Shown here: piece by piece, positions 44,216-61,033 of the stretch
Layout of the letters: each line of letters opens with the position of its first letter
Position numbering within the stretch: position 1 is the stretch's first letter
Assembly (NCBI RefSeq): GCF_030145145.1
Contig: NZ_JAQYWD010000005.1
Coordinates: forward strand, 62,001 to 126,000
Reading direction: 5' to 3'
Source of the DNA: Desulfobacula sp.
GTDB lineage: Bacteria; Desulfobacterota; Desulfobacteria; Desulfobacterales; Desulfobacteraceae
DNA: 64,000 nucleotides
Made by a program: the position numbers and the translations under genes
The notes under the pieces: model-generated
Seen by the model: the letters and a program-made list of their open reading frames with translations, nothing else
Databases searched by the model: none
What the model was told of the DNA's origin: nothing

Positions 44216-45016
44216 GTGCAAAAATTTCAACGGGCCATTTTAACCCATGGTGGTTCCGCCTCGGACCCCCAAAATTCCGACGGGCCACAATCGGCGGCAA
44301 AAATCGGGATGGCTTTAATGGAAAATGGCCAATCTGCTTTATCTGCAGTGGTTCGTGCAGTAAGATATTTGGAAGATGATCCCCGGTTTAATGCCGGGCT
44401 TGGCTCACAACTCAGGGCGGACGGCTGCACCATCCAGCAGGATGCATCCTGCATGACAAGCAATGGTCAATTTGGCGCGGTTGCAGGCATTGAAGGCATC
44501 CTAAACCCTGTTGATCTGGCCCAGGGTGTATTGCTTTTTTCTCCCCATATCCTCCTTGTGGGTGATGGTGCCATGTTTTTTGCAAAAGAACAGAAGATAC
44601 CGGTAATGTTGTTAAATGGCCCTGATGGTAAAAAACCATGCGCCGCTTCCTGCGATACTGTGGGTTCAGTGGCCTTTGATGGAACAACCTTTGCTGCGGC
44701 CTTAAGTTCCGGTGGGCTTGAAAAAACGGCCATAGGAAGGGTGGGTGATGTCCCCCTCCCCGGATGCGGCCTGTTCTGCGGTCCTTCAGGGGCGGTTGCC
44801 TGCACAGGAGATGGTGAATTTATCGCTTTAAAACTGTTGGCAAGAGAAGTCTATGGCTGGCTTGAAAGAAAGATGAGTGCGGATAAGGCAGCACAAAAGG
44901 CCATGACCCTGTTTGATAGTTCTGTTGATGTCGGACTCATCATTTTAACCCGGGATGAATTTGAATCAACTGCCCGTAACGGCATGGCATGGTCATCGCT
45001 TACGGAGATGAAATAA
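44216..45016 (+). CDS. isoaspartyl peptidase/L-asparaginase (Ntn hydrolase)
   Basis: A type 2 asparaginase/isoaspartyl dipeptidase proenzyme of about 266 residues. The N-terminal ILTHGGSASDPQ, the RYLEDDPRFNAGLGS segment and the self-cleavage site CDTVGSVAFD, whose Thr becomes the N-terminal nucleophile, are all present. GTG at 44216 was chosen for GGAGG six bases upstream. It is the first gene of an operon with cyanophycinase and cyanophycin synthetase, so it probably splits the beta-Asp-Arg dipeptide released from cyanophycin. Its stop overlaps the next start (TAATG). Confidence 0.9.
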   Translation: MQKFQRAILTHGGSASDPQNSDGPQSAAKIGMALMENGQSALSAVVRAVRYLEDDPRFNAGLGSQLRADGCTIQQDASCMTSNGQFGAVAGIEGILNPVDLAQGVLLFSPHILLVGDGAMFFAKEQKIPVMLLNGPDGKKPCAASCDTVGSVAFDGTTFAAALSSGGLEKTAIGRVGDVPLPGCGLFCGPSGAVACTGDGEFIALKLLAREVYGWLERKMSADKAAQKAMTLFDSSVDVGLIILTRDEFESTARNGMAWSSLTEMK

Positions 45017-45858
45017 TGATGGAAACAAATCCATTTTTTCTGGGACGTCTCATTGCCATTGGCGGAAATGAAGACAAAGAAAATGAATTGCTTGTACTCA
45101 AACGGGTTATCAGAGAAATCGGAAAGCCTGATTACAAGGTCGGCGTCATTGCCACTGCAAGCGAAGACCCTGAACAGCGGGGCCAGGACTATCAACAGGT
45201 CTTTACGACCCTTGGCGCATCCGAAATAAAGATCTTAACCATTAAAACAAGGGCCCAGGCAAATGATAAAACACTGGCCAAAACCCTTGAAGACGTTGAT
45301 TTGATTTTTTTTACCGGTGGTGATCAGTTGCGATTAACAACGATTCTGGGCGGGTCAAAAACACTTGCTGTGATTCAAGACCGGCTTGAAGCAGGGGCCC
45401 TCATCGCCGGCACCAGTGCCGGGGCTGCTGTATTTTCAGATACCATGATTTATGAAGGAGAAAGTGAAGACGGACTGTTTAAAGGCAGCGTCCTCACGAC
45501 ATCCGGATTTGGTTTTGTAAAAAATATTGTTTTTGATACCCATTTTATGGCAAGGGGCCGTATCGGTCGTCTCGTTCAGATTGTTACAACGAATCCGACC
45601 TGTATCGGCTTTGGTATTGGCGAAGACTCAGGTGTTGTCCTCAAGGGAGACGGAACGGTCGAGGTCATTGGTACGGGCCAGGTCATTATTGTTGACGGCA
45701 GCGATATTGCCCATTCCAACATAATGGATATTAAACCGGGCGGGCCCATTGCCGTGGAAAATGTGCGAATCCATTCACTGGTTGACGGATATGGGTACGA
45801 TTTCAAAAAAAGGCGGTTTTTAATACCATCATCACAACCCATCGGAGAGGACAGATGA
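45016..45858 (+). CDS. cphB: cyanophycinase
   Basis: A serine exopeptidase of the S51 family, about 280 residues. Key segments are LIAIGGNEDKENE at the N-terminus, FFTGGDQLRL near 95, and the nucleophile elbow AGTSAGAAVFS near 133. The DTHFMARGRIGRL loop near 178 is typical of cyanophycinases. It degrades cyanophycin to beta-Asp-Arg. The ATG overlaps the upstream TAA, with GGAG eight bases before it. It overlaps cphA by 4 bases, so breakdown and synthesis genes are co-translated. Confidence 0.93.
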   Translation: MMETNPFFLGRLIAIGGNEDKENELLVLKRVIREIGKPDYKVGVIATASEDPEQRGQDYQQVFTTLGASEIKILTIKTRAQANDKTLAKTLEDVDLIFFTGGDQLRLTTILGGSKTLAVIQDRLEAGALIAGTSAGAAVFSDTMIYEGESEDGLFKGSVLTTSGFGFVKNIVFDTHFMARGRIGRLVQIVTTNPTCIGFGIGEDSGVVLKGDGTVEVIGTGQVIIVDGSDIAHSNIMDIKPGGPIAVENVRIHSLVDGYGYDFKKRRFLIPSSQPIGEDR

Positions 45859-48467
45859 TTGAAATAAAAGAGTTAAGAGCATTGCGTGGCCCCAATCGAT
45901 ATACCCGGCATTCGGCCATATTCATGGTTTTAGATATCAAGGACTACGAGAGCCGCCCTTCAGATGAAATCAACGGCTTTTCAGATCGGCTGGTGGCACT
46001 ACTGCCGACCCTCCGGGAACACGAATGCTCCATTGGTCAACCCGGCGGATTTGTCCAGAGGCTTGAGAGGGGAACCTGGGCCGGTCATATCATTGAACAT
46101 ATTGCCATTGAACTTCAATGCCTGGCTGGAATGGCGGTTGGATATGGGAAAACGCTGGGCACGATGCAAAAGGGAGTTTATATTGTTGTCTTCAGGTATC
46201 TTGTAGAATCTGCAGGATTAAAAGCAGCTCAAGAGGCCGTATCCATATTCGAAGCAATGGCCGAAGAAGAGAGATTTGATGTCAGCCGGGTTATTTCTGA
46301 TCTCAAAATTTTGCGCGAAGATCATATGCTGGGACCCACAACCTGGAGTATTGTTAAGGAAGCCCATTCAAGAGGCATTCCCTTTATCCGGCTGAATGAG
46401 GAAAGTTATGTCCAGTTGGGGTATGGCGCCCATCAAAAACGGATTCAGGCCTCTATAACCGGCAATACGTCGGCCATTGCCGTGGAAATTGCCGATGAAA
46501 AGACACGGGTGAAGACCCATTTGAAAAAAGCCGGGATACCGGTTCCAAAGGGCCAGGTGGTGACAACCCTGGAAGAGGCCATGACTGTTTTTAACGAAAT
46601 CAATGCTGCTGTCGTGGTCAAGCCGGATGTGGGGAATCACGGCAATGGATCTACCATCAATGTGATTGATACGGATCAGTTAAAAATGGCTTTTTACGTT
46701 GCCAAAGCCTTTTATCCGGATGTCATTGTTGAAGCGTATGTTCATGGGGGTGATTTTCGCCTTCTGGTCATAGATGGAAAAATGGTGGCTGCGGCCAGGC
46801 GAGAGCCTGCTCATATCATTGGTGACGGAACGTCCTCCATAAAAGAGCTCATTGGAATTGTCAATTCAGGTCCGCTTCGCGGGTTTGGGCATGAAAAAGT
46901 CCTGACACAAATTGAAATTGATGAAATGACTGAACGGCTACTGGCCCTGAGGGGATTTTCCCTGGATTCCCGGCCGGAGGCGGGGGAGAAAGTTTACCTC
47001 AAAGCCACGGCCAACTTAAGTCAGGGGGGAACTGCCACCGATGTGACCGATGAGGTAAACCCGGAGATCCGCAGGATGGCTGAACGTGCTGCACGGATTA
47101 TTGGGCTGGATTGTGTGGGCGTCGATGCCCTGGCCCAGGACATATCGCTACCTCTTGACTCCTCCGGCATAAAAGTCGTTGAAGTCAATGCCGCACCCGG
47201 ATTCAGGATGCATCTGGAGCCGACCAACGGCCAACCCAGGAACGTTGCAGTACAGATGGTGGATATGCTTTTCCCGGGCGGATATGACCGGATTCCGGTT
47301 GTGGCTGTGACCGGAACAAATGGCAAGACAACGACCTGTAAACTGCTTGCCCATTCATTAAAGTATTCGGGAAAAATAGTGGGTCTGGCCTGCACCACCG
47401 GTGTTGCCATTGACGGGAACTCTATTTTGACCGGAGACTACAGCGGTCCGGAAGGTGCCGGGATTGTCTTAAGGGAACCCTCTGTGGACCATATTGTACT
47501 GGAAGTCGCCCGGGGGGGAATCGCAAGAAGAGGTCTTGGTGTTGATGCGGTGGATGTGGGTGTGCTGTTGAATATTGGAAAGGACCACCTGGGGTGTGAC
47601 TGGATTGAATCCCAGGAAGAGTTATCCCTGGTAAAATCCACGGTAATAGAAGTTGTTAAAAAAACGGGTACTTCGGTTTTAAACGCAGATGACAGTGTGA
47701 CCATGAGCGTTCTGGACCGTGCCCGGGGAGCGATTATTCTGTTTTCCCTGGACCCGGACAATGAAACGGTTGTCACCCATGTGAAAAACGGGGGAACCGT
47801 TGTTACGGTAATCGACCGGAATGCCGTCATCAGAAAAAGCGAATTGGACATCATTGTCTGCACGCTTGAAGAAATCCCCATTACCTTTGGCGGAATTATC
47901 GACTTTAACATTTCCAATGCCCTGGCAGCCATTGCCGCCCTCCACGCTTTGAACCTGCCCATTGAACAGATTCGAAACGGAATCATGACCTTTTATCCTT
48001 CTGTAAACCAGAATCCGGGTCGTATGAATTTATTTGATTTTCAACACTACAAGGTCCTTTTGGATTATGGTCATAATCCGGAATCGGCCATTGCCCTGGC
48101 CCAATTGCTGCCACGGCTCTCGCCCGGAAGAAAGGTTGGATTATGTCATGGAACCGGCAGCCGGACCGATGAACAACTCATTGACTTTGGCAAAGCCCTG
48201 GCTTTGGTATACGATTATATTATTTTGACCGATTTTGATCCCCGTCAAAGGCCTGTAGGAGAAACTCAGAAGATCGTTCATGAGGGACTCATTCAAGGCG
48301 GGTTCCAGGAAAACCATATTGAAATCATTTCAGAGCCTGAAAAAGCCGTGGATCACATTTTTTCAAAGGCCCGAAAAGGGGATTTGCTGGTCATTCAACC
48401 AGATGAGCTTGAACCTGTCATGGGTCAGATAATGAAACGGTATCGGCAGCTGGTCACTCATTTGTAG
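45855..48467 (+). CDS. cphA: cyanophycin synthetase
   Basis: An 870-residue enzyme of normal length with three parts: the N-terminal domain (1-160), an ATP-grasp domain (about 215-470; VVVKPDVGNHGNGSTI, VVEVNAAPGFRMHL), and a Mur-ligase-like domain (about 480-870) with P-loop VTGTNGKTTTCKL and the LDYGHNPES motif. The ATP-grasp half adds Asp to the backbone and the Mur half adds Arg to the Asp side chain. It makes the nitrogen-storage polymer cyanophycin. It is the last gene of the three-gene operon. Confidence 0.95.
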   Translation: MIEIKELRALRGPNRYTRHSAIFMVLDIKDYESRPSDEINGFSDRLVALLPTLREHECSIGQPGGFVQRLERGTWAGHIIEHIAIELQCLAGMAVGYGKTLGTMQKGVYIVVFRYLVESAGLKAAQEAVSIFEAMAEEERFDVSRVISDLKILREDHMLGPTTWSIVKEAHSRGIPFIRLNEESYVQLGYGAHQKRIQASITGNTSAIAVEIADEKTRVKTHLKKAGIPVPKGQVVTTLEEAMTVFNEINAAVVVKPDVGNHGNGSTINVIDTDQLKMAFYVAKAFYPDVIVEAYVHGGDFRLLVIDGKMVAAARREPAHIIGDGTSSIKELIGIVNSGPLRGFGHEKVLTQIEIDEMTERLLALRGFSLDSRPEAGEKVYLKATANLSQGGTATDVTDEVNPEIRRMAERAARIIGLDCVGVDALAQDISLPLDSSGIKVVEVNAAPGFRMHLEPTNGQPRNVAVQMVDMLFPGGYDRIPVVAVTGTNGKTTTCKLLAHSLKYSGKIVGLACTTGVAIDGNSILTGDYSGPEGAGIVLREPSVDHIVLEVARGGIARRGLGVDAVDVGVLLNIGKDHLGCDWIESQEELSLVKSTVIEVVKKTGTSVLNADDSVTMSVLDRARGAIILFSLDPDNETVVTHVKNGGTVVTVIDRNAVIRKSELDIIVCTLEEIPITFGGIIDFNISNALAAIAALHALNLPIEQIRNGIMTFYPSVNQNPGRMNLFDFQHYKVLLDYGHNPESAIALAQLLPRLSPGRKVGLCHGTGSRTDEQLIDFGKALALVYDYIILTDFDPRQRPVGETQKIVHEGLIQGGFQENHIEIISEPEKAVDHIFSKARKGDLLVIQPDELEPVMGQIMKRYRQLVTHL

Positions 48468-49791: not shown

Positions 49792-51321
49792 ATGACATTT
49801 AGTTGGGAAAATTTCCTGAGTCGGCATCGAGATGAGATTGTCCTTGCGTGGAAAAAAAGACTCAAAAATGATGTGTCCGAGGATTATGCTCAACGGTCCC
49901 TGGAAGAGTTGCAGGTTACCACGGAAACGGCATATGATGCGAACAGCAGCATGATTGCTTATAATGATTATGCCCCTATTAATGCCTTTATCAATGAAAT
50001 CAGCAATGTCCGTCTGGAAGAGGGCTTTTCTTTGGAGGATGTTCAAAAAGCCTTTGAGCTTTACCGGAAGATTATCGTCCCTGTCCTGATAAGAGAGTCA
50101 CCTGTGCAAGCGTTGTGTGAAAATATTGAAGCGGTGAATAACGCTCTTGCTTATACCATTTACCGGTTCAGTTACGATTTTCAAAAGAAACATGAAAAAT
50201 ATTTAAAACAGTATGCCCAGCAGCTTGAAAAAGATGTGGCAGAAAGAACAGCTGAATTAGGGGAGTCAGAGCATAAGTATAGAACCCTGGTGGAAGATAT
50301 CAGTGATGGATATCTGGCATTGGATAAAGACAGAATTGCCTTTGTGAATCCGGCTTTTTGCCGGATGCATGGATGCCGGGTCAACGATGCAATGGATATG
50401 TCTTTTTTATTGTTTGTTGCAAAAGAGAGTCATGAACAAGTCAGTGCCATTATTTCCCGGGAAATAAAGACGGGAACAGAACCGGAAACCTTTGAGTACC
50501 TGAGATTAACAAAGGACGGGGAATCTCTTCCAACGGAAGTTAATTTCAGGCCATCCCGGTTTGGCGGCCAGGACTATAACCTTTGCATTGTAAGGGATAT
50601 TACCAAACGGGTTGAGATGGAAAAAAGAAGCCGGGAAATAGAACGGATGACCTATATCGGCAAACTCATCACATCCCTTTCCCATGAGATCAGAAATCCG
50701 TTATCCTCGGTAAAAATGAATCTCCAGATTTTGAGTAAAAACATGATCTTAAAAGGGAATGATAGAAAACGGCTCCAAATATCAGAACGGGAGATTAACC
50801 GGCTTGAAGCCATTTTACAAGAACTTCTCAATTTTGCAAAACCAGTGTCATTGCAGCTTACCCGGACAGATATAAACGAGATTGTACGGTCTTGTGTTGA
50901 ATTGTTAGAAATGAAATTCCATAGAAAAAGTATTGATTGTCAGATCCATGTTGACCCAACCGTAAAAGAAGTTCCTGCCGATAAAGGGAAAATAGAGCAA
51001 ATGATGATCAATTTTCTTTTGAATGCCCTGGATTCTGTGGATGATTTTGGGAACATCAGGATATCCACCTGCCGGGTAGAACAAAAGGATAGGCCATATG
51101 TCATGATACGGATTGAAGATGATGGCAAAGGGATTTCAAAAGAACTGCTGCCCCATATTTTTGAACCGTTTTATACAACAAAGACAACCGGAACCGGTTT
51201 GGGCCTTGCCAATGTGAAACAGATTGTGACCGCCCATCACGGCAGGATAGAAGTGATGGCTTTGAAAAATTCAGGGACCGCCTTTGAGGTCTTCCTGCCC
51301 ATGGGAGAAACAAATGGTTAA
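49792..51321 (+). CDS. PAS-domain sensor histidine kinase with RsbRD-like N-terminus
   Basis: A 509-residue cytosolic kinase without membrane helices. Residues 5-130 form a helical RsbRD-like domain (WENFLSRHRDEIVLAWKKRL). A coiled coil (about 130-158) leads to a PAS domain (162-272), then HisKA with the phosphorylatable His298 in SLSHEIRNPLSS and a HATPase with DDGKGISKELLPHIFEPFYTT and GTGLGLANVKQI. The ligand is unknown; a soluble PAS suggests a redox or cytoplasmic signal. It overlaps the response regulator gene by 8 bases, so the two form one operon. Confidence 0.9.
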   Translation: MTFSWENFLSRHRDEIVLAWKKRLKNDVSEDYAQRSLEELQVTTETAYDANSSMIAYNDYAPINAFINEISNVRLEEGFSLEDVQKAFELYRKIIVPVLIRESPVQALCENIEAVNNALAYTIYRFSYDFQKKHEKYLKQYAQQLEKDVAERTAELGESEHKYRTLVEDISDGYLALDKDRIAFVNPAFCRMHGCRVNDAMDMSFLLFVAKESHEQVSAIISREIKTGTEPETFEYLRLTKDGESLPTEVNFRPSRFGGQDYNLCIVRDITKRVEMEKRSREIERMTYIGKLITSLSHEIRNPLSSVKMNLQILSKNMILKGNDRKRLQISEREINRLEAILQELLNFAKPVSLQLTRTDINEIVRSCVELLEMKFHRKSIDCQIHVDPTVKEVPADKGKIEQMMINFLLNALDSVDDFGNIRISTCRVEQKDRPYVMIRIEDDGKGISKELLPHIFEPFYTTKTTGTGLGLANVKQIVTAHHGRIEVMALKNSGTAFEVFLPMGETNG

Positions 51322-52660
51322 CCTTTTGGTCGTGGATGATGAACATCCCATACGGGAATCCATCGACATGTTCATGTCTGAAAAAGGACACCGGGTTTAC
51401 ACGGCATCCACGGTTGAAGAATCCGTCACTGTGTTTAAAAAATTGTCCCCGGAAGTGGTTATTCTCGATATCCGGCTTCCCGATGGCAGCGGTCTGGATG
51501 CGTTAAGCCGGATGCACGCATTTTACCCATTATCCAAAATTATCATGATTACCGCATTCCAGGATATGGAAACCACCATTGAGGCCATGAAAAGAGGGGC
51601 ATACGATTATATTCACAAACCGCTGGATGCTGATGAGCTCGAAAAAACGGTGGCGGATGCCATTGTAAGCTTTTACGAAGATGCCAAGCCTGCCGCAAAA
51701 GGTCCAGACAAAGACACCTACCATGAAAGCGAGATTGTGGGTAAAAGCCGTGTCATGAAAGACGTGTATAAAATGATCGGTATGCTGTGTCAGAACAGGG
51801 CAACCGCATTGATTACAGGTGAGACCGGTACGGGAAAGGAACTGGTGGCAAGGCGGATACATTTGAGCAGTGCTTATAGCCAAAAACCTTTTGTTACTTT
51901 TGATTGTTCTGCCGTGGTGGACACCCTTTTGGAAAGTGAATTGTTCGGCCACGAGAAAGGCGCTTTTACAGGGGCCGTGGACGCGAGGCCGGGTAAGATT
52001 GAACTGGCAGGGGAGGGCACCCTTTTCCTCGATGAGCTCGGGGAATTACCGTTAAATCTCCAGGGAAAACTTCTGGGGTTTCTTGAAAGAAAGCAATATA
52101 TGCGTGTGGGTGGGAAAATTCCCCTCAAGTCTCGGTGCAGGATCATCGCCGCCACCAACAAAGACCTTGCCGAAATGGTCCGGGAAAAACGGTTCAGGAC
52201 GGACCTGTATTACCGGCTCAGGGTGGTGACGGTGGCCCTTCCGCCGTTGCGGCAGCGGTTGTCGGATATCCGGGCGCTTGTGGCCCATTTTGTCCAGAAA
52301 AGCACCCATCAACTGGGGATTCAACAGATGACCCTGCAGGACGGCTGTATTGAAAGATTGAAGCGTCATCCCTGGACAGGAAATGTCCGGGAGCTTGAAA
52401 ATATTATTGTGTCGGCCTCTATACAGTCCCGGGGAAGTGTGATTCTCCTGGACGTCATTGAAAACCTCTTGTCCCAGCATCCGGTTTCCCTGGAAGACGT
52501 CAGCGACTCACAGTCCCTTTCACAAGTTGAAAACCAGCATATTTTCAATACCCTGGAATCGGTCAAATGGAATAAAACCAGGGCCGCCCAAATCCTTAAG
52601 ATTTCTTTGCCCACCTTGAGAAAAAAAATTCAAAAATATCACCTGACACCTCCGGATTAG
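51314..52660 (+). CDS. sigma54-dependent NtrC-family response regulator
   Basis: A regulator of about 448 residues: receiver domain with Asp52 in VVILDIRLPDG, AAA+ domain with Walker A GETGTGKEL near 168, the sigma54 contact loop KGAFTGAVDA near 210, and LFLDELGELP Walker B, then a Fis-type helix-turn-helix (NKTRAAQILKISLPTLRKKI). ATG at 51314 lies within the end of the kinase gene with GGGAG before it. Sigma54-type promoters with dyad upstream sites lie about 4 and 10 kb downstream, so this pair is the nearest candidate activator. It ends with a 4-base overlap with the convergent iclR-type gene. Confidence 0.92.
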   Translation: MVNLLVVDDEHPIRESIDMFMSEKGHRVYTASTVEESVTVFKKLSPEVVILDIRLPDGSGLDALSRMHAFYPLSKIIMITAFQDMETTIEAMKRGAYDYIHKPLDADELEKTVADAIVSFYEDAKPAAKGPDKDTYHESEIVGKSRVMKDVYKMIGMLCQNRATALITGETGTGKELVARRIHLSSAYSQKPFVTFDCSAVVDTLLESELFGHEKGAFTGAVDARPGKIELAGEGTLFLDELGELPLNLQGKLLGFLERKQYMRVGGKIPLKSRCRIIAATNKDLAEMVREKRFRTDLYYRLRVVTVALPPLRQRLSDIRALVAHFVQKSTHQLGIQQMTLQDGCIERLKRHPWTGNVRELENIIVSASIQSRGSVILLDVIENLLSQHPVSLEDVSDSQSLSQVENQHIFNTLESVKWNKTRAAQILKISLPTLRKKIQKYHLTPPD

Positions 52661-53415
52661 GGGGTTACTTTCCTTTGAATTTCATCAGCAATGTGCCGCA
52701 TGAATTTTCCCCAGGAATGGAGTCGTTTTTCAGACAGCATCCTTTTGAGTCCCACCACATAGATGGCAGTGGGAACCGACTTGCGGACAAACAGGGGAAC
52801 GGCCAATGCGCGAATACCTTCGGTGTATTCCTCCCTGTCAAAGGCGATGCCTTCTCTTTGAACCGTTTGAATCATTTGTTTAAAATCGGCTTTATCCACA
52901 CAGGTAAACGGGGTAAAGGCCACCAGGTCGTTGGTGGTCAGAAGAGCATCGAGTTCCGGGTCGGTGAGTTGACACAGGAGTGCTTTTCCACCTGCACCCG
53001 CGAACAGTGAGTGGCTGTTTCCCACTTCAGTGGATATTTTAAACCCTGTGATGGAATCTGCTTTTTCCACCACAACTGCGTTTAAGGCCGAGCGGACCAC
53101 CAGAAAAGCCGTCAGGCCGGTTTCAGCATTGATTTCTTCAAGATACGGCCGAGCGGTTTGCACCAGACCGGCCGCCTGACCCGCGGGCTTACCCAGTTGA
53201 TAGAAGCGGGCACCAGGATGAAAGCACCCTTCATCATCCCGCTCTAGGATTCCCAAATCCACTAGAGAATGCACCAGATTGAATACGGTACTGCGGTGAT
53301 ACCCTAAGGCAGAAGAAATAGCGCTGACCCCCAGGGGTTTTCGGGTGCTGACCAACAGATCAATGAGATCAAAACATTTGTATACGGCCGGTACCGGTTT
53401 GAATTCTACAGGCAT
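52657..53415 (-). CDS. IclR family transcriptional regulator
   Basis: A 252-residue regulator. The N-terminal winged helix-turn-helix (about 10-70, GVSAISSALGYHRSTVFNLVHSLVDLG) and the C-terminal GAF-like effector domain (about 85-250, GLTAFLVVRSALNAVVVEKAD) are typical. IclR members commonly control aromatic or organic acid catabolism. It lies 116 bases downstream of the Fe-S subunit gene on the same strand, with its own AT-rich palindrome just ahead, and probably regulates the molybdoenzyme/symporter cluster. Confidence 0.9.
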   Translation of the reverse strand: MPVEFKPVPAVYKCFDLIDLLVSTRKPLGVSAISSALGYHRSTVFNLVHSLVDLGILERDDEGCFHPGARFYQLGKPAGQAAGLVQTARPYLEEINAETGLTAFLVVRSALNAVVVEKADSITGFKISTEVGNSHSLFAGAGGKALLCQLTDPELDALLTTNDLVAFTPFTCVDKADFKQMIQTVQREGIAFDREEYTEGIRALAVPLFVRKSVPTAIYVVGLKRMLSEKRLHSWGKFMRHIADEIQRKVTP

Positions 53416-53531: not shown

Positions 53532-53876
53532 CTATCGGGGGGACCAGAGCACCATGCGGGGTTTTTTCCCCAGTTCTCCGGCCAGGTCGGGCAGGGAACC
53601 ATAGGTAATCACACCGGCCATGCAGTGTTGAACACAGGCCGGTTCCAGCCCTTTTTTTGTTCGCGGGAAGCATAAAATACACAACTCCGTGGGAAAGGGT
53701 AAGAAATTGAGATACGCCTTGCCCTTGGGAAGGTTTTGCACAATTTCCAGAACCTGAATGCCGCCCATGCCGGCAGGCCAGTGATGTTCCTGGGAACAGG
53801 CCACCTGGCAGGCAAAACACCCGGTGCAATATTCATAATCGATCAACAATCCGTTTTCAGGTTTTTTAGCCATTGC
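53532..53876 (-). CDS. two-cluster 4Fe-4S subunit of the molybdoenzyme
   Basis: A protein of about 114 residues with two [4Fe-4S] motifs: C16-x2-C19-x2-C22-x3-C26 and C65-x2-C68-x11-C80-x3-C84. It resembles a shortened DmsB/PsrB-type electron-transfer subunit, which normally has four clusters and about 200 residues. ATG at 53876 was chosen for AAAGGAGG six bases upstream; it overlaps the end of the molybdoenzyme gene by 11 bases. No signal peptide. It probably shuttles electrons between the molybdoenzyme and a ferredoxin-like partner. Confidence 0.88.
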   Translation of the reverse strand, partial: AMAKKPENGLLIDYEYCTGCFACQVACSQEHHWPAGMGGIQVLEIVQNLPKGKAYLNFLPFPTELCILCFPRTKKGLEPACVQHCMAGVITYGSLPDLAGELGKKPRMVLWSPR

Positions 53877-56316
53877 GTTCCTCCTTTCCCACTGCCTTGT
53901 AAATTTTGCACAGCAGGTGTTTGATGGGCGCGCCCTGGCCGTCTTTTCCCTGATGGCCCATGGGGAGGAGCTGATTGACATTGCATTCCCAAACTCCATA
54001 TAAACTCGGCTCTGCTGCTTTTTTTTCAGGATACCACCACCCGTGGGCCGCCATCACCATCCAGGGCGGAACAATCCGGGTCACCTTTGCCTTCATTTTG
54101 CAACGACCCAGCCAGTTTTCCATCCAGACCCATTCACCGTTACCGATATCATGGGCTGCAGCTGTCTCGGGATGGATTTCAACAATGGGATCCGGGTCCA
54201 GTTGTCGCAGCCACGGGATATTGCGGTGCTCGGAATGGAAATAGGCAGGAGACCGTCTTCCAGTGGAAAGAATCAGCGGGTAATTCCTGGTTAAATCCGG
54301 GCGACTCACCGGTGTAAAGGGCGGCTCTTCATGGTGGGGCAGGGGATCCAGTCCCCAGTCTTCTCGATGGGTGGAGTATAATTCAAACTTGGCCGTAGGG
54401 GTTTTGAATCCGGGTTTGCCGTCGGGCCGCAATTGTCCTTTTTCATGGCGATGGTAGGGGGCACTGGGATGGGATACCGGTGGGATGGCCCATCCTTTTT
54501 GCTGGAGTTGTTCAAAGGTCATACCCGATGGTTTGAGAATGTCATCAAACAACTTATTGATCGTATCATATTTGAATTCAGGATCAAACCGCCGGGCCAG
54601 TTCAAAATTGATCTCTACATCCGGCTTACACTGGTCAACGGTTATGGCCTTGTTGATTGTTTGAAGCGGCACCCACCAGCTGCGTACTCCATTTTTCTCC
54701 AGAAAAGTGGCGGCGGGCAGAAGGATGTCCGCATATTGGGTGGTGGGGGTGTGAAAAAGATCCACCGCAGCAATAAAGTCCAGTTTTTCCAGGGCCCTTT
54801 TCCATTTTTTGGGATCCAGTCCGATACCGTTTAACAGACCCGCCGTCTGAATCCACATTCCTTTAATGGGGTAGGGTTTTCCTGTAAAGATCTGATCCAG
54901 GGTCATATCGGTCTGGGCCCGCCAATGAAAGGTGCGGTAAGGACCGTATTCCTTTACCCCCACCCGTTTGGCATCCATGTCCTTGTCTTTGAGACCTATG
55001 GGGCCCACCGCCCCGGGAAGGGCATAGGATACCGCGTCAAAGGCGAATTTGGCAATCACATTTCCTCCGGGGATATCCAGATTTCCGGTTAAAGCCCAGA
55101 GGGATGCAATGGCATGGCAGGTGGGGGTCACAGCCGGGGTCATATCAATAGGAACCCCCCACTGAATGGCGGCAGGCTTGCTTTTGGCGTAAAGCCGGGC
55201 CGCTTTTCGTATCTTATCGGCAGGCACCCAGGTGATTTCTGCCACTTTGTCCAGAGGATACTTGTTGACCGCTTCGCAATACGCATCCCAGGACGTTCGG
55301 CAACTCACCCGGGACCCATCGGCCAGTGTCACTTCCCAACGCCCTGAAAGTGCTGCCTTAACGTTCAGTGCTTTAAACTCCGCCTGGCTTGAAAGCCAAA
55401 TGGCAGGGGTTCCGCTGTTTTCATCCCACACGACAAAATTGCCCGGATCGCCGGCAGCCTCCAGATGAATTTCCCGCAACAACTTTCCTGTATCGATCCG
55501 TATGAGATGGGCCCCATTGGTCCATTTTTCAAGAAAATCGTGATCATACAGATCTTCATTGATAATGACATTCAGCATTCCCATGGCCAGGGCTGCATCT
55601 GTGCCGGGCCTTAGCTGAAGCCAGTGTTTGGAACGGGAGGCAAAAAAACTCAGGCGGGGGTCCACACAGATAATCTGGGTGCCGCGCTTCATCATGTCTA
55701 TAATCCAATGGCCAAAGAGGTTATCCGGACAGGTAGCTGAAATGTTATATCCCCAGATGATAATGGTCTCGGGGAGTTTGAATTTCGGATCTTCATAGCG
55801 GTCCGGCAGCCATTGTCCGGCATCAAAGACGCAATAACATCCCTGAAATGTGTTACAGGCACTTAATCGGGGTCCATAACAGGCACTCCCGCTGAGAGAA
55901 AACATCACGTTGGGGCTGCCAAAGGCATAGGCCAGCATACAGATCCAGGGACCTATGTCCCGGCCCGTTCCCATGGAAAATATAATGCTTTCAGGGCCAT
56001 GGTCCTCCCGAATCCCTTTCATTTTTTTTTCAATATAGTCAAAGGCCTTTTCCCAGGAAATTTCCTCCCATTTACCTTCGCCGCGTTTGCCCACCCGCTT
56101 TAAGGGTCTTGTGATACGATCTTCGTGGTTCACGTATTGGGTCATGGCCAGGGCCCGGGCGCATAACCGTCCCTGATTCCAGGGATGATTCGGGTCTCCT
56201 TCAAGTTTAATCAGCTGGCCATCCTTAATATGGGCGAGTACACCGCAGCCGCCATGGCACCCCGGTCCGGCAGACCAGGTAGTCGTTGGGACGATGTGAA
56301 CATTTTCAGAATTCAT
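53866..56316 (-). CDS. DMSO-reductase-family molybdopterin oxidoreductase, substrate unknown
   Basis: A catalytic subunit of about 816 residues with all four molybdopterin-fold regions. The N-terminal cluster motif is incomplete: C20-x3-C24-x27-C52 is present, but the usual first Cys is Gly17 in AGPGCHGGCGV. SGSACYGPR near residue 146 has a Cys at the likely metal-ligand position. There is no signal peptide, so the enzyme is cytosolic. ATG at 56316 follows AAGGAG. Context (Fe-S subunit, IclR, symporter, benzoate-CoA-ligase-like gene, FdhD-like gene) points to an aromatic or organic acid substrate. Relatives to consider are transhydroxylase, catechol dehydroxylases, acetylene hydratase and phenylacetyl-CoA oxidoreductase. 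Confidence 0.87.
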   Translation of the reverse strand: MNSENVHIVPTTTWSAGPGCHGGCGVLAHIKDGQLIKLEGDPNHPWNQGRLCARALAMTQYVNHEDRITRPLKRVGKRGEGKWEEISWEKAFDYIEKKMKGIREDHGPESIIFSMGTGRDIGPWICMLAYAFGSPNVMFSLSGSACYGPRLSACNTFQGCYCVFDAGQWLPDRYEDPKFKLPETIIIWGYNISATCPDNLFGHWIIDMMKRGTQIICVDPRLSFFASRSKHWLQLRPGTDAALAMGMLNVIINEDLYDHDFLEKWTNGAHLIRIDTGKLLREIHLEAAGDPGNFVVWDENSGTPAIWLSSQAEFKALNVKAALSGRWEVTLADGSRVSCRTSWDAYCEAVNKYPLDKVAEITWVPADKIRKAARLYAKSKPAAIQWGVPIDMTPAVTPTCHAIASLWALTGNLDIPGGNVIAKFAFDAVSYALPGAVGPIGLKDKDMDAKRVGVKEYGPYRTFHWRAQTDMTLDQIFTGKPYPIKGMWIQTAGLLNGIGLDPKKWKRALEKLDFIAAVDLFHTPTTQYADILLPAATFLEKNGVRSWWVPLQTINKAITVDQCKPDVEINFELARRFDPEFKYDTINKLFDDILKPSGMTFEQLQQKGWAIPPVSHPSAPYHRHEKGQLRPDGKPGFKTPTAKFELYSTHREDWGLDPLPHHEEPPFTPVSRPDLTRNYPLILSTGRRSPAYFHSEHRNIPWLRQLDPDPIVEIHPETAAAHDIGNGEWVWMENWLGRCKMKAKVTRIVPPWMVMAAHGWWYPEKKAAEPSLYGVWECNVNQLLPMGHQGKDGQGAPIKHLLCKIYKAVGKEERNG

Positions 56317-56421
56317 GATGTTTGTCTCCTTCCCCTTTAAAGGGAAATTGTCCATGACACTTGCGGAACATGGCACACTAAAAGTTGTCAAAGGCAGTCT
56401 ATGTTTGTTTTTTATATTGAT

Positions 56422-56459
56422 TGACCTCTATAGAAAACATAATATTTCTATAGAGGTCA
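56422..56459. promoter_or_regulatory. 38-bp operator-like palindrome O1
   Basis: Perfect 15-bp arms (TGACCTCTATAGAAA and its complement) flank an 8-base spacer. Each arm contains the self-palindromic octamer TCTATAGA, with centres exactly 20 bases apart. It lies about 105 bases upstream of the molybdoenzyme start and about 230 bases upstream of the mapped sigma54 promoter. Likely a binding site for the IclR protein or the NtrC-type activator. Confidence 0.65.
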
Positions 56460-56531
56460 TTATGTCAAGCCTTAATGTTTAAAATTAAGTGTGTCTCAAA
56501 AAAAATTGGGAGAATCTGTCTCTCAATCCCG

Positions 56532-56564
56532 GAAAGGATCTTTCTAGTCCGGAAAGATCCTTTC
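56532..56564. promoter_or_regulatory. 33-bp operator-like palindrome O2
   Basis: Perfect 13-bp arms GAAAGGATCTTTC and GAAAGATCCTTTC flank 7 bases. Each arm is itself a GAAAG-N3-CTTTC dyad, again with centres 20 bases apart. It is centred about 130 bases upstream of the expected sigma54 start site, the usual range for an enhancer site. Confidence 0.65.
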
Positions 56565-56653
56565 TGGTAAAATGGTTGAACTCAAAAATTGTCCTTATAT
56601 GGAAACCCTTGTTCCCGTAGTGATACAGACGCAAAGACGTCTTCAAAAAACGC

Positions 56654-56669
56654 TGGCACAGGATTTGCT
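56654..56669 (+). promoter_or_regulatory. sigma54 (-24/-12) promoter of the symporter-ligase operon
   Basis: TGGCACAGGATTTGCT matches the sigma54 consensus with GG (56655-56656) and GC (56667-56668) exactly ten bases apart. It lies 78 bases upstream of the DUF997-like start codon. Confidence 0.8.
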
Positions 56670-56747
56670 CTATAGGTAAACAAATAAAGTTTTATTGGTA
56701 AATGTGGGGGTAATTTTTAACAGCTTTAACTCAAAAGGGGAAAGTGA

Positions 56748-57035
56748 ATGACGTCTAACAAAAAGAAAAATCTTATTTTTCTAATTCTGTTTCTTGTTCT
56801 CACGGTATTCTGTTGGTGTCCTATCGGATATGGAAGCTATGGTAAAGTCGGTTTGATCATGGGAATGCCCTCGTGGGCCTTTTACATGCTGGTGATTGGT
56901 GCCGTGCTCTTTGTGATTGAATGGGTATATCTGTTTTACACAGATCTGGCATTGTATGACGAAGATCTTGAAGAGATCATGATGGCACTTGAAAAAACAA
57001 CCACCACCCAGGTAACCATTAAGGAGGAAAACTAA
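56748..57035 (+). CDS. small DUF997/YhdT-like subunit preceding an SSS symporter
   Basis: A 95-residue membrane protein with two helices (about 8-28 and 42-65), followed by an acidic tail (FYTDLALYDEDLEE). The MPSWAFYMLVIGAVLFVIEWVYLFYTD arrangement matches YhdT/DUF997 proteins, encoded just before sodium:solute symporters such as PanF. Its stop is one base before the symporter start, and AAGGGGAAA precedes its ATG. It probably helps the symporter fold or function. Confidence 0.78.
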   Translation: MTSNKKKNLIFLILFLVLTVFCWCPIGYGSYGKVGLIMGMPSWAFYMLVIGAVLFVIEWVYLFYTDLALYDEDLEEIMMALEKTTTTQVTIKEEN

Positions 57036-57036
57036 C

Positions 57037-58530
57037 ATGGTCGCTGTCACTATTATTACAGGCCTTTGCCTGATATCGGTCTATATCAGCTATGTTGCCT
57101 TTCGTAAGGGGTTTACTAAAACAGCAGATGATTATTTCGTAGCCGGCTCAAGTCTGGGCTATTTCGTGCTGATTTTCAGCCTTCTGGCATCGTTTTTAAG
57201 CGCCTTTTCCATGTTCGGAATGTCAAGTTTCGGATACCGGCTGGGATTTGGATCTTTATATGTCCTGACAGCCAACCTGGTCCCTTTGGGGTTTTTATGG
57301 TATTTCATGCATAAAAAAACATTTCTTCTGGGAAGGGCCAGGAAATGGATGACCATGGGGGCACCCTTTGGTGAAAGATATGGCACGCCCATGAGAATTG
57401 TTTTGGTCCTTGTGGTGCTTGTGGCATCCATTCCCTATGTGGTCGCCCAGATCCAGGGCATCGGCGTCATGCTGGAGGCCATGAGCGAAGGCATCATTTC
57501 TTTTCATATGGGGCTGTTCTTTGTGCCCTTTTTTATTGCCTTATACCTGATGATGGGGGGAATGAAAGGGGCTGCCTGGGTCAACGCCATCCAGGGGGTC
57601 TTTTTTTCCATCATGGTGTTTGTTCTTTTCTTTTTTGTCATGATGAAAAATGGCGGGTTTGTTCCCACCATGGAAATGGTCATGGCAAAACATCCCAACC
57701 TGTTTCAAATCGGCTGGGCCGGGGGCAAGGTCTGGAGCTATCCCATGATTTTCGGCATGGCAGCGGCCATGTGTCTGGGATGTGTCTGTTTCCCCCAACC
57801 CTTTATGCATGCCTATTCAAGCCGGTCTGCCCGGGGATTAAAAGCCATGTTCCTTTCGTTTGGCGGCATCTGTCTGGTGGTCATCACCCTGCCTACACTG
57901 GTGGGTATTGCAGGCAACGTCATTGTTCCGGGACTGAAAGGGGTTGCCGCTGATAAAATTTACGGGCTTGTTGCTGCAGCCACCATGCCGGACTGGCTGG
58001 CGGCGTTTGCTGTGGCCGGTGGATTTACCGCTGCCATGTCAACGGTGAACGGCCTTGTTTTTGGAAATGCAGCCAATCTATCCGTGGATATTATTAAAAC
58101 CCTGCGGCCGGAAACCCGGTCCTCGGAACTCATTACCATTGCCAGGGTATTTGTGGCCCTTATCATGGCGCTATGTGTCTTTATCGCCTGGAATCCCAAT
58201 ACGCCGGTGGCAGAGCTTTCCATCATCGCTTTCGGCACAGTGGCCGTGACCTTTTTTGCCCTTTGGGGGGCGTATTACTGGAAAAGGGCCACTGCCACCG
58301 GTGCCATATTATCAACCCTTGTGGGGGTTGCGTTAAATGTTACGTTTTTTCTTGTCGGCGGCAAAGCCTGGGTTCTTTTTCCCCAGAGAGCATTGCTGAA
58401 CATGAACGGATTTCTTGCTGCGTTTATTATCTCAGGAATCGTTTTCTTTGTGGGATCTTACCTGACAACGCCCGGCAAAACCGAAGAAAAAAGTCTTAGT
58501 CTCTTTTTTCACCCCGTTTTAACTAAATAA
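57037..58530 (+). CDS. sodium:solute symporter (SSS family)
   Basis: A 497-residue transporter with about 13 helices. Diagnostic segments are FTKTADDYFVAGSSLGYF near residue 30, LMMGGMKGAAWVNAIQGVF near 170, and FAVAGGFTAAMSTVNGLVFGNAANLSVDI near 325, which carries the Na+-site Ser/Thr pair. The closest pattern is the PanF/acetate/carboxylate branch. Given the CoA ligase 22 bases downstream, it probably imports the carboxylic acid, perhaps aromatic, that the ligase activates. AAGGAGGAAA precedes its ATG. Confidence 0.9.
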   Translation: MVAVTIITGLCLISVYISYVAFRKGFTKTADDYFVAGSSLGYFVLIFSLLASFLSAFSMFGMSSFGYRLGFGSLYVLTANLVPLGFLWYFMHKKTFLLGRARKWMTMGAPFGERYGTPMRIVLVLVVLVASIPYVVAQIQGIGVMLEAMSEGIISFHMGLFFVPFFIALYLMMGGMKGAAWVNAIQGVFFSIMVFVLFFFVMMKNGGFVPTMEMVMAKHPNLFQIGWAGGKVWSYPMIFGMAAAMCLGCVCFPQPFMHAYSSRSARGLKAMFLSFGGICLVVITLPTLVGIAGNVIVPGLKGVAADKIYGLVAAATMPDWLAAFAVAGGFTAAMSTVNGLVFGNAANLSVDIIKTLRPETRSSELITIARVFVALIMALCVFIAWNPNTPVAELSIIAFGTVAVTFFALWGAYYWKRATATGAILSTLVGVALNVTFFLVGGKAWVLFPQRALLNMNGFLAAFIISGIVFFVGSYLTTPGKTEEKSLSLFFHPVLTK

Positions 58531-58552
58531 TTTAATCAGGAGGAAATAAAAT

Positions 58553-60127
58553 ATGAAACTTGATGTTCTTGACGCTGAGTATTTCAATGCTGCGGATTAT
58601 TTTGTGGACAGAAATGTCCGTGAAGGCAGAAAAGATAAGGTGGCCATTCTGTGTGAAGACCGGCAGATGACCTATGGCACACTTGCCAAAGAAGTCAATC
58701 GATTTGGAAACGCCCTTTTATCCAACGGGTTTAGAATGGAAAATCGGGTGGCCGTGATGATGCTGGATATGGAACTTTATCCCGTGGTATTTTTCGGGTC
58801 CATTAAAGCAGGAGCGGTTCCCATCTGCCTGAATACCCTGATGCGGCCAAAAGATTATCTTTATTTTTTAAATGACAGCCGGGCCAGGGTCCTGGTGATT
58901 GATGAATCGCTGTATTTCAATATTGAAGAGATTAAAGATGAACTCAAATACCTTGAGCGGATTATCATGGTAAACAGTACCCAGGATCGACCGGAGGTTA
59001 CGACATATGATGACTTTGTCCGTGACCAGCCCGATTCCCTTGAACCGGCCCAGACCGGTCCTGATGATGCCTGTTTCTGGTTGTACAGTTCAGGGTCCAC
59101 CGGGAAACCCAAAGGCACGGTTCATTTGCAGCATGATATGCTGTTCACCGTTGAAACTTACGGAAAGCAGGTGTTACAGGTCAGGGAGGATGATATTTGT
59201 TTTTCCGCGGCAAAATTATTTTTTGCCTATGGCCTGGGCAATGGGACCTATTTCCCGTTCAGTGTGGGTGCCACCACCGTATTGATGCCGGAACGTCCCA
59301 CCCCCGAATCTGTGTATAGAACCATTGCCCTGCATGAACCCACGGTGTTTTTCGGGGTGCCAACTCTGTATGGTGCCATGCTGGCATCTGAAGAGGGGAA
59401 GGTGAACGGGGTCCGGCTCTGTGTGTCCGCTGGAGAAGCCCTGCCGGCAGATATTTTTTACCGCTGGAAAGACCGGTTCAATGTGGATATCCTGGATGGT
59501 ATCGGATCCACGGAAATTGCCCATATTTATATTTCCAACCGGGTGGAAAATATCCGGCCGGGAAGTACAGGACAGATTGTGCCCGGTTATGAAGCAAAAA
59601 TTGTGGACAATGAGTTTAATCCAGTACCCCCCGGAGAGATCGGAACCGTTTTGATTAAAGGCGACAGTACAGCCGCCTATTATTGGAACCGGCATGACAA
59701 AACCAAAGAAGCCATGTTGGGAGAATGGTTTAATACCGATGATAAATTTTTTGTGGATGAAGAGGGATTTTTCTTTTACGTGGGACGGTCCAATGACATG
59801 TTAAAGGTCGGTGGTATCTGGGTCTCTCCCATTGAAGTAGAAGCCTGCCTGATCGGTCACCCCGCAGTGCTTGAGTGCGCGGTTGTGCCCAGCCGGGATG
59901 AAGAAAATCTTGTGAAACCCTGTGCCTATATTGTTTTGAATAAGGAGTTTGAGGCATCTGAGGCCCTGGAGAAAGAAATAAAAACCTATGTGAAAAAGGA
60001 ACTGGCCCACTATAAATTTCCCCGGTGGGTTTATTTTGTAAAGGACCTGCCTAAAACGGCAACCGGAAAAGTTAAACGGTTTGAATTGAAAAATCTGGAA
60101 GATCAAAAATCCATGGTATCTGCCTGA
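58553..60127 (+). CDS. benzoate-CoA ligase-like acyl-CoA synthetase
   Basis: A 524-residue ANL-superfamily adenylating enzyme. The AMP-binding P-loop YSSGSTGKPKGTVH lies near 178, FFAYGLGNGTYFPFSVGA near 222, the A5 motif LDGIGSTEIAHIY near 320, the A8 hinge DMLKVGGIWVSPIEVE near 417 and catalytic Lys in KTATGKVKR near 505. The AAKLFFAYGLGN segment is characteristic of the benzoate-CoA ligase branch. It would activate the acid brought in by the symporter. AGGAGGAAA precedes the ATG. The exact aromatic acid is not predictable. Confidence 0.88.
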   Translation: MKLDVLDAEYFNAADYFVDRNVREGRKDKVAILCEDRQMTYGTLAKEVNRFGNALLSNGFRMENRVAVMMLDMELYPVVFFGSIKAGAVPICLNTLMRPKDYLYFLNDSRARVLVIDESLYFNIEEIKDELKYLERIIMVNSTQDRPEVTTYDDFVRDQPDSLEPAQTGPDDACFWLYSSGSTGKPKGTVHLQHDMLFTVETYGKQVLQVREDDICFSAAKLFFAYGLGNGTYFPFSVGATTVLMPERPTPESVYRTIALHEPTVFFGVPTLYGAMLASEEGKVNGVRLCVSAGEALPADIFYRWKDRFNVDILDGIGSTEIAHIYISNRVENIRPGSTGQIVPGYEAKIVDNEFNPVPPGEIGTVLIKGDSTAAYYWNRHDKTKEAMLGEWFNTDDKFFVDEEGFFFYVGRSNDMLKVGGIWVSPIEVEACLIGHPAVLECAVVPSRDEENLVKPCAYIVLNKEFEASEALEKEIKTYVKKELAHYKFPRWVYFVKDLPKTATGKVKRFELKNLEDQKSMVSA

Positions 60128-60160: not shown

Positions 60161-60189
60161 GAGCCCGGTTCTGTTCATGAACCGGGCTC
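60161..60189. terminator. hairpin terminator between ligase and fdhD-like genes
   Basis: GAGCCCGGTTC (60161-60171) pairs with GAACCGGGCTC (60179-60189) around 7 bases. It overlaps the last codons of the fdhD-like gene and lies 34 bases past the ligase stop. T-tracts are poor on both sides, so efficiency is uncertain. Confidence 0.55.
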
Positions 60190-60978
60190 GCCTGCCACAA
60201 TTCTATTGCCATGGGTGTAGATATTGAACCGGTTGTTCCGGGCAAATCCGATAATGGTCAACCCGGCGCTATCCGCCAGCTTAACTGCGGAAAGGGTCGG
60301 GGCGGCATTGGAGATGACAATGGGAATACCGGTTTTGATAATTTTTCCGATGATTTCCAAAGACATCCGGCAACTGACTGTTGCGATCTTGTCGGTCGTG
60401 TCAATCCCTTTCAGCAGGATATCGCCTGCCAGTTTATCAAGGGCGTTGTGCCGGCCAATGTCTTCATAATAATGCAGGATCGTTGACGGATTGCAGAGTC
60501 CGGCACTGTGAACGGCGCCGGTCTTGTGAAACAGTTCAGACTGATCCCAGTGCTGTTGAATCAAAGACAGGACCTGGTCATAAGTGATACAAAGCGTATC
60601 CTTCAGGGTCGCGGATAAAACATCAGCCGGATCCTGCAGCAGCGTGCCACCGGATGATCCCTTGATTTGCCGGCCTTGTTTGAAGCTGTTTAACCGTTGG
60701 GTTGCCCGGTCCGTCAGGGTGACACGGCATTGCTTTTTTCCTTTGACAGACTCAATTTCCTTTAGGTCTGTTTTATCCTGAACAATGCCCTGGGTAAACA
60801 GGAACCCTGCTGCAAGTGCCCGGGTATGGGTCATGGAAAATACCATCTGAAATATTTTTTCCTCGTTGATAAATATGTCAAGAATATCTTCATCAATAAT
60901 GCTGTCTTTCATCCGGATGGGTTTGTTATCTTTTATCCGGATGATATCCACCTGCCGGATGATATGCGTATTGTCCAT
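60175..60978 (-). CDS. fdhD: FdhD-like protein lacking the CxxC sulfur-transfer motif
   Basis: A protein of about 267 residues with the FdhD fold: ALAAGFLFTQGIV early, TGAVHSAGLCN, then DIGRHNALDKLAGD and the SCRMSLEIIGKIIKTGIP...SNAAPT cofactor-binding half. FdhD transfers sulfur from IscS to the molybdenum cofactor of formate dehydrogenase through a CGVCG-type loop. Here that loop reads GRQIKGSSGGT, with both cysteines absent. ATG at 60978 follows GGAG; 60990 is an alternative. Convergent with the ligase and near the molybdoenzyme, it is probably a dedicated, mechanistically altered maturation factor. Confidence 0.85.
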   Translation of the reverse strand: MDNTHIIRQVDIIRIKDNKPIRMKDSIIDEDILDIFINEEKIFQMVFSMTHTRALAAGFLFTQGIVQDKTDLKEIESVKGKKQCRVTLTDRATQRLNSFKQGRQIKGSSGGTLLQDPADVLSATLKDTLCITYDQVLSLIQQHWDQSELFHKTGAVHSAGLCNPSTILHYYEDIGRHNALDKLAGDILLKGIDTTDKIATVSCRMSLEIIGKIIKTGIPIVISNAAPTLSAVKLADSAGLTIIGFARNNRFNIYTHGNRIVAGEPGS

Positions 60979-61033
60979 GTGTGTCTCCATTTCAAAAGTT
61001 GTTTAAATGATATTGACAGTCCCAGCGCATCGG

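Follow-up and report, generated by a model that had tools for sequence, protein, structure and literature searches.

In our trees, the two-subunit molybdoenzyme that we describe here from Desulfobacula sp. belongs to the Gordonibacter-type catechol dehydroxylase clade, where it falls into a sister subgroup, and we think it probable that the enzyme is a cytosolic reductive dehydroxylase that acts on a catechol-type compound. Its genes lie in a 64,000-nucleotide stretch of contig NZ_JAQYWD010000005.1, which we analyzed as a whole and refer to as the window. The enzyme is a new member of an already described class, and dehydroxylase genes in Desulfobacula are not new as such; the genus is already among those named with putative dehydroxylases in PMC7028382. 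We also observed that the cassette encoding the enzyme and a neighboring symporter-ligase operon are two genetically separable modules.

The alpha and beta subunits

The catalytic bis-MGD subunit, alpha (816 aa; 53866-56316, minus strand), was assigned from Pfam, trees, motifs, and a structural model. Its reading frame runs from an ATG at 56316 to a stop at 53866, with a purine-rich stretch 5' of the start. Three Pfam families score above cut-off (PF00384, PF01568, and PF04879), and inspection by eye found no twin-arginine signal. We judged the protein to be cytosolic, which agrees with the original prediction of a cytosolic enzyme of the DMSO reductase family. The N-terminus is WSAGPGCHGGCG...LCAR, also written TTTWSAGPGCHGGCG...GRLCAR. 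As had been predicted, its version of the common CxxCxxxC motif lacks the first Cys, and Cys20, Cys24, and Cys52 are kept. The predicted Cys metal ligand is borne out as a candidate by Cys146, which lies within SACYGPR, matches the metal-ligand Cys position in our reading of the alignment register, and is invariant in 24 of 24 aligned sequences. His21 is also invariant in all 24.

The beta subunit (113 aa; 53532-53873, minus strand) is a predicted Fe-S electron-transfer protein whose start at ATG 53873 overlaps the alpha stop and whose frame ends at a stop at 53532. Fer4_11 scores above cut-off, and there are eight cluster cysteines in two 4-Cys motifs (CxxCxxCxxxC and CxxC-x11-CxxxC), corresponding to two clusters and to the reduced two-cluster subunit that had been expected. 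Among the loci listed, beta homologues are 34-83% identical. Neither a signal peptide (by eye) nor a membrane anchor is found in the two subunits. An Rfam search gave nothing that reached the gathering score. The window also holds, at 22478-23623, another molybdopterin oxidoreductase, assigned by PF00384 in a frame of 1014 aa.

The gene for an IclR-family regulator (52657-53415, minus strand; Pfam) follows the alpha and beta genes, and its product likely regulates them. IclR homologues are located near alpha in the related genome G008 and in Desulfonema magnum, and also beside some relatives that keep all four cysteines. Upstream of alpha, a sigma-70-like promoter (TTGACA-18-TATTAT, 56439-56468, minus strand) is suggested by a pattern scan that gave 2 overlapping matches against a mean of 1.0 (sd 1.1) in shuffles, which is weak by itself. 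A candidate operator, a perfect 15-nt inverted repeat at 56422-56459, overlaps this putative promoter. In G008 we saw by eye a looser, similar repeat, and a repeat search there did not return the same pair.

The symporter-ligase operon

On the plus strand, diverging from alpha-beta, are genes for a DUF997 small membrane protein (56748-57035; a score of 26.3 bits, equal to the cut-off), a sodium:solute symporter (57037-58530; PF00474), and a benzoate-CoA-ligase-family protein (58553-60127; PF00501, PF13193, and TIGR02262), so the enzyme does face a symporter and a benzoate-CoA-ligase-like protein, as had been described. The ligase scores 646.9 bits with TIGR02262 against a cut-off of 375.25, which places it in the family, and its nearest solved relatives are anthranilate- and benzoate-CoA ligases. 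Its motifs AKLFFAYGLGNG and GIGSTE..HI agree with those of benzoate-CoA ligase 2v7b, and these are positions that we take to have a role in the substrate pocket. Like the TIGR02262 benzoate-CoA ligases in score and motifs, it differs in that its operon is independent of the molybdoenzyme in four genomes (see below), and its activity on an aromatic acid is putative.

A sensor kinase and a sigma-54-activating response regulator (49792-52660, plus strand; regulator Pfam and synteny) likely control this operon; their homologues adjoin it, contiguously, in four genomes. An inverted repeat 5' of the operon (56529-56567, repeat search) is a candidate activator site, and its core GAAAG...CTTTC is kept in 6/6 genomes. 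A candidate sigma-54 promoter element (TGGCAC-N5-TTGCT, 56654-56669, plus strand) was found by a scan that returned 3 sites with at most 1 mismatch, one of them exact. Shuffles yield 2.87 such sites, so the evidence for this element rests on its conservation: it is exact in 4/6 genomes and near-exact by eye in the remaining two. Given that the two candidate promoters are of different types, one sigma-54 and the other sigma-70-like with an inverted repeat, the alpha-beta and symporter-ligase units look separately regulated.

An FdhD sulfurtransferase gene (60175-60990, minus strand; Pfam) adjoins the ligase. The ligase has FdhD as its direct neighbor in G008 and also in G016, where no molybdoenzyme accompanies them, and FdhD is near the ligase in G012; a tie between FdhD and alpha-beta would be conjectural. 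Elsewhere in the window (44989-48467), Pfam matches point to a cyanophycinase-like peptidase S51 gene and, after it, a gene resembling cyanophycin synthase, a pair that we had not expected in a sulfate reducer.

Two modules in the genus

We compared 26 genomes of the genus, of which six, including that of the window, have the ligase at 80% identity or more. In four of the six (G024, G025, G016, and G012), the sensor, response regulator, DUF997, symporter, and ligase genes are contiguous, the gap between the regulator and DUF997 is about 220 bp, and no molybdoenzyme was found within the operon stretch fetched. The sensor frame of G012 is split into two pieces. In the window, IclR-beta-alpha occupies the gap between the regulator and DUF997, and in G008 this gap is about 17 kb, whose contents include a TRAP-like set, IclR, a glycyl radical enzyme, beta, and alpha. 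The adjacency of enzyme and operon is thus kept in two species, whose alpha subunits are 90% identical. Desulfonema magnum carries an 80% alpha orthologue together with beta, an MFS transporter, and an IclR homologue, and no ligase was found within 10 kb on either side of it. The original prediction had treated enzyme, symporter, and ligase as one locus, which these arrangements do not support. The unassigned glycyl radical enzyme of G008, located between IclR and beta (L030, 5053-7482), is nearest to sulfopropanediol dehydratase, at 439 of 1000 bits.

Both a gain of the cassette by insertion in two species and a loss in four are possible. The GC3 of alpha ranks 12th among the 43 window ORFs of at least 200 aa, which is not unusual; in G008, five genes other than alpha and beta have GC3 values of 0.441-0.486, below the 0.573 of alpha. 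In a search of plasmid records, the top match among those listed has 30.3% identity.

Because the operon occurs without a molybdoenzyme in four genomes, the ligase does not fix the substrate of the enzyme, and the neighboring ligase is an unsafe guide to what alpha-beta acts on. The two modules might still form one pathway, in which a dihydroxybenzoate such as protocatechuate is imported and dehydroxylated before or after CoA activation, and hydroxybenzoyl-CoA then enters the benzoyl-CoA pathway. We regard this as a doubtful proposal, which would refine rather than exclude the catechol dehydroxylase reading. The adjacency in the window and G008, the family and pocket motifs of the ligase, and two BamA-type genes in the genome are in its favor. 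So are the neighbors of some subgroup members, which include beta-oxidation genes or genes for an acyl-CoA dehydrogenase, an OYE-type reductase, or an acyl-CoA ligase of another kind. However, it has to be set against the four operons that have no enzyme, the different classes of candidate promoters, the other genes within the 17 kb of G008, and the IclR and MFS surroundings in Desulfonema magnum.

Genome and orthologue context

The genome carries dsrA above cut-off, so we consider the organism to be a sulfate reducer. The earlier remark that no ring-reduction genes are present was made of the window; for the genome it does not hold with respect to BamA, since two TIGR03200 (BamA-type hydrolase) genes above cut-off, with near-identical starts, are found on other contigs. 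The genome also has three TIGR02262 ligases above cut-off. One of its other contigs (L029, 8731-13991; G000:C9) has a tandem pair of subgroup members with an IclR gene, 67 and 57% identical to alpha, and we noted that this tandem order recurs in congeners. On another (L191, 8831-17784; G000:C72), a TIGR02262-family ligase is beside two molybdopterin enzymes with CxxCYHSC that are outside the 74-row clade described below.

At five loci (L033, L034, L035, L053, and L093), orthologues are found beside another acyl-CoA ligase. Several such loci also have beta-oxidation genes or encode a TRAP transporter, an acyl-CoA dehydrogenase, or an OYE-type reductase, with the families assigned for L034 and L036 alone. 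Such surroundings would suit side-chain aromatic acids. With two query ligases in blastp, a ligase was found near a subgroup member at 6/54 other loci, including G008, a weak count made after 12 duplicate or unclear loci were dropped and in which many flanks are short. Since so few of the loci have a ligase nearby, the aromatic-acid context of the subgroup is thin.

Phylogenetic placement

We scanned genomes for relatives of alpha and took the best 80 of 580 matches, which include Gordonibacter, other Coriobacteriia, Sporomusa, Moorella, Dehalococcoidia, Acidobacteria, and Desulfonema magnum. Gordonibacter sp. 28C had 107 matching stretches, from which 30 loci and fetched regions were used, with some paralogues outside the tree; the stretches of its clade members are mostly 34-53% identical to alpha. 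Before the 114-row FastTree was built, 19 of the 104 extracted rows were removed because they were fragments, near-duplicates, or frames fused across neighboring genes, and 21 subgroup rows were hand-picked; the rows of a second, 52-row tree were chosen by hand from this set. Both are FastTree or quick searches without bootstrap, and neither has reference sequences for PadBCD, transhydroxylase, arsenate reductase, or the Eggerthella enzymes.

In the 114-row tree, alpha is in a 74-row clade (support 100) that contains the 24-row subgroup of the window and 23/34 Gordonibacter 28C rows, among others. Outside it fall the remaining 11 Gordonibacter 28C rows, along with acetylene hydratase, the polysulfide reductase PsrA, and five E. 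coli enzymes. In a quick IQ-TREE search of the 52 rows, the 34-row joint clade has an SH-aLRT of 100 and the window group 99, and the window subgroup is sister to the Coriobacteriia groups rather than nested within them. A phylogeny had been proposed along with the original prediction, which had left the reaction open and counted reductive dehydroxylation among the candidates; the placement with Gordonibacter-type catechol dehydroxylases and apart from acetylene hydratase points to that candidate. Record titles in the window subgroup name Desulfobacterales, Chloroflexota, Acidobacteria, Actinomycetota, and others. The gut catechol dehydroxylase branch has a wide-ranging sister group that includes sulfate reducers as well as other bacteria.

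According to excerpts of PMC12771579, Eadh1 and Eadh2 were identified in Gordonibacter 28C through their induction and were then purified and assayed; the cluster that encodes them (eam) includes a LuxR regulator, MFS transporters, and a decarboxylase of the amidohydrolase type. We provisionally assigned Eadh1 and Eadh2 to genes of Gordonibacter 28C by their neighbors, and the second candidate (contig C2) enters the tree as a close homologue, L128. Two clade members on an Adlercreutzia contig (L139) have amidohydrolase, MFS, and LuxR genes between them, and on Gordonibacter 28C contig C16 (L197) a clade member is beside amidohydrolase and MFS genes; judging by these neighbors, both clusters appear to be eam-like.

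The clade can be recognized by simple marks. The N-terminal motif without its first Cys is present in 74/74 clade rows and 0/40 others. Among the 71 clade members with enough flank, 60 have a Cys-rich ORF (8-11 Cys) directly downstream, 47 of them with the full motif, and in 11 no beta-like ORF was found directly downstream. None of 32 non-clade members has the full beta motif (no ORF in 12, 16-18 Cys in 15, and 5-11 Cys in 5). A missing first Cys and a two-cluster beta are therefore useful marks in searches for such enzymes. In 6/74 clade rows, the second Cys of the N-terminal site is Asp or Ser (GDH in L100, L137, L141, and L164; GSH...Y in L123 and L167), and this loss suggests that the Fe-S site decays stepwise.

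Acetylene hydratase 2e7z, which resembles alpha in having a Cys metal ligand, is the closest solved sequence (E 5.6e-78) and, in a Foldseek search with an AlphaFold model of alpha (mean pLDDT 85.7), also the closest fold (rank 1, TM 0.76/0.85). These similarities would be expected if alpha-beta carried out a non-redox hydration of the acetylene hydratase kind, but we think this very improbable and rejected the identity. Acetylene hydratase has a catalytic Asp and a four-Cys cluster and is not known to have a beta subunit, whereas alpha has His21 at the Asp position, is missing the first Cys, and is encoded with an electron-transfer beta. A constraint joining the window group, which was named after the tree had been seen, to acetylene hydratase was rejected (p-AU 4.3e-5).

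Scores against curated families argue against several other identities. Alpha has 273 bits with PhsA (cut-off 694) and is apart from PsrA in the tree, which speaks against a thiosulfate/polysulfide reductase, and 79.7 bits with ArrA (cut-off 1600), which speaks against an arsenate reductase; a close grouping with a known enzyme of this sort had been named as refuting the original prediction, and these scores give no sign of one. With Fdh-alpha, the score is 259.2 bits (cut-off 666.25), and formate dehydrogenase is outside the clade. Nitrate or DMSO-type enzymes were rejected with scores far below curated cut-offs and five E. coli enzymes apart in the tree. Phenylacetyl-CoA:acceptor oxidoreductase, PadBCD, is a membrane-anchored three-subunit enzyme.

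Proposed reaction

The subunits, motifs, clade, and distinct candidate promoters are features that can be read from the DNA; the reaction class and mechanism are proposed by analogy with tested relatives. The two clusters of beta would relay electrons from a low-potential donor to alpha, where they would reach a Mo (or W) bis-MGD held by Cys146. A hydroxyl of a catechol-type aromatic would then bind the reduced metal, the neighboring hydroxyl would tautomerize to a ketone, and the oxygen would pass to the metal while the ring re-aromatizes, in line with the dehydroxylation mechanism proposed in PMC7028382 and PMC12771579. The IclR protein would control the cassette. With this proposal, an open-ended molybdoenzyme becomes testable.

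Given that the subgroup is sister to the Coriobacteriia groups and not nested in them, its chemistry could have drifted from catechol dehydroxylation. The same reductive chemistry might then remove a non-catechol hydroxyl, as in an alpha-ketol or hydroxy acid, much as Eggerthella and Gordonibacter have a Mo corticoid dehydroxylase for which the hydroxyl removed is alpha to a ketone (excerpt of PMC11574389). We consider this rather unlikely, since the corticoid dehydroxylase was compared by description rather than by sequence, and the assayed Eadh enzymes require a catechol group (excerpt of PMC12771579). In a literature search of open-licence papers, we found no functional test of any member of the 24-row subgroup and no functional report on the putative Desulfobacula dehydroxylases.

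More speculatively, in a reading that we think less likely than not, the subgroup could supply the dehydroxylase that is missing from the anaerobic breakdown of catechols and hydroxybenzoates in settings other than the gut. Sulfate reducers, Dehalococcoidia, and others would then use it before ring reduction to remove a ring hydroxyl, either from free acids or from their CoA esters (e.g., protocatechuyl-CoA). If true, dehydroxylation would serve catabolism rather than act as an electron sink.

Comparison with known systems

The first description of the class (PMC7028382) gives acetylene hydratase as the nearest relative. Two types of enzyme can be distinguished. Eggerthella-type catechol dehydroxylases have a Tat signal, an Fe-S motif, a four-cluster beta, and a membrane anchor (excerpts of PMC11585353 and PMC11574389), and we rejected this type for alpha-beta, comparing by description, as it has none of these features. 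Pyrogallol transhydroxylase was also rejected; its metal ligand is Ser (excerpt of PMC10100899), and alpha has Cys146. Relatives with four cysteines (L060 and L063) share the CHGGCG motif and a homologous IclR close by, but they keep all four Cys, have a partner ORF with 17 Cys, and form their own clade.

Gordonibacter-type catechol dehydroxylases consist of two cytoplasmic subunits (excerpt of PMC11887054), with fewer clusters and a catalytic subunit that does not have the Fe-S motif (excerpt of PMC11574389). The loss of this motif is partial in alpha, where three of four Cys remain. The window enzyme also differs in belonging to a separate sister subgroup and in its IclR rather than LuxR regulator. 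LuxR and MFS neighbors are frequent in the Gordonibacter type, although not defining; in the window they are absent, with IclR and an SSF symporter instead, and an MFS transporter is found in Desulfonema magnum. Like Eadh1/2/3, Dodh, Gp Hcdh, and Cldh, alpha-beta has two predicted cytoplasmic subunits, a catalytic subunit of similar size, and a two-cluster beta, and it shares with the Gordonibacter type the missing first Fe-S Cys, a Cys at the metal position, and one clade with full support.
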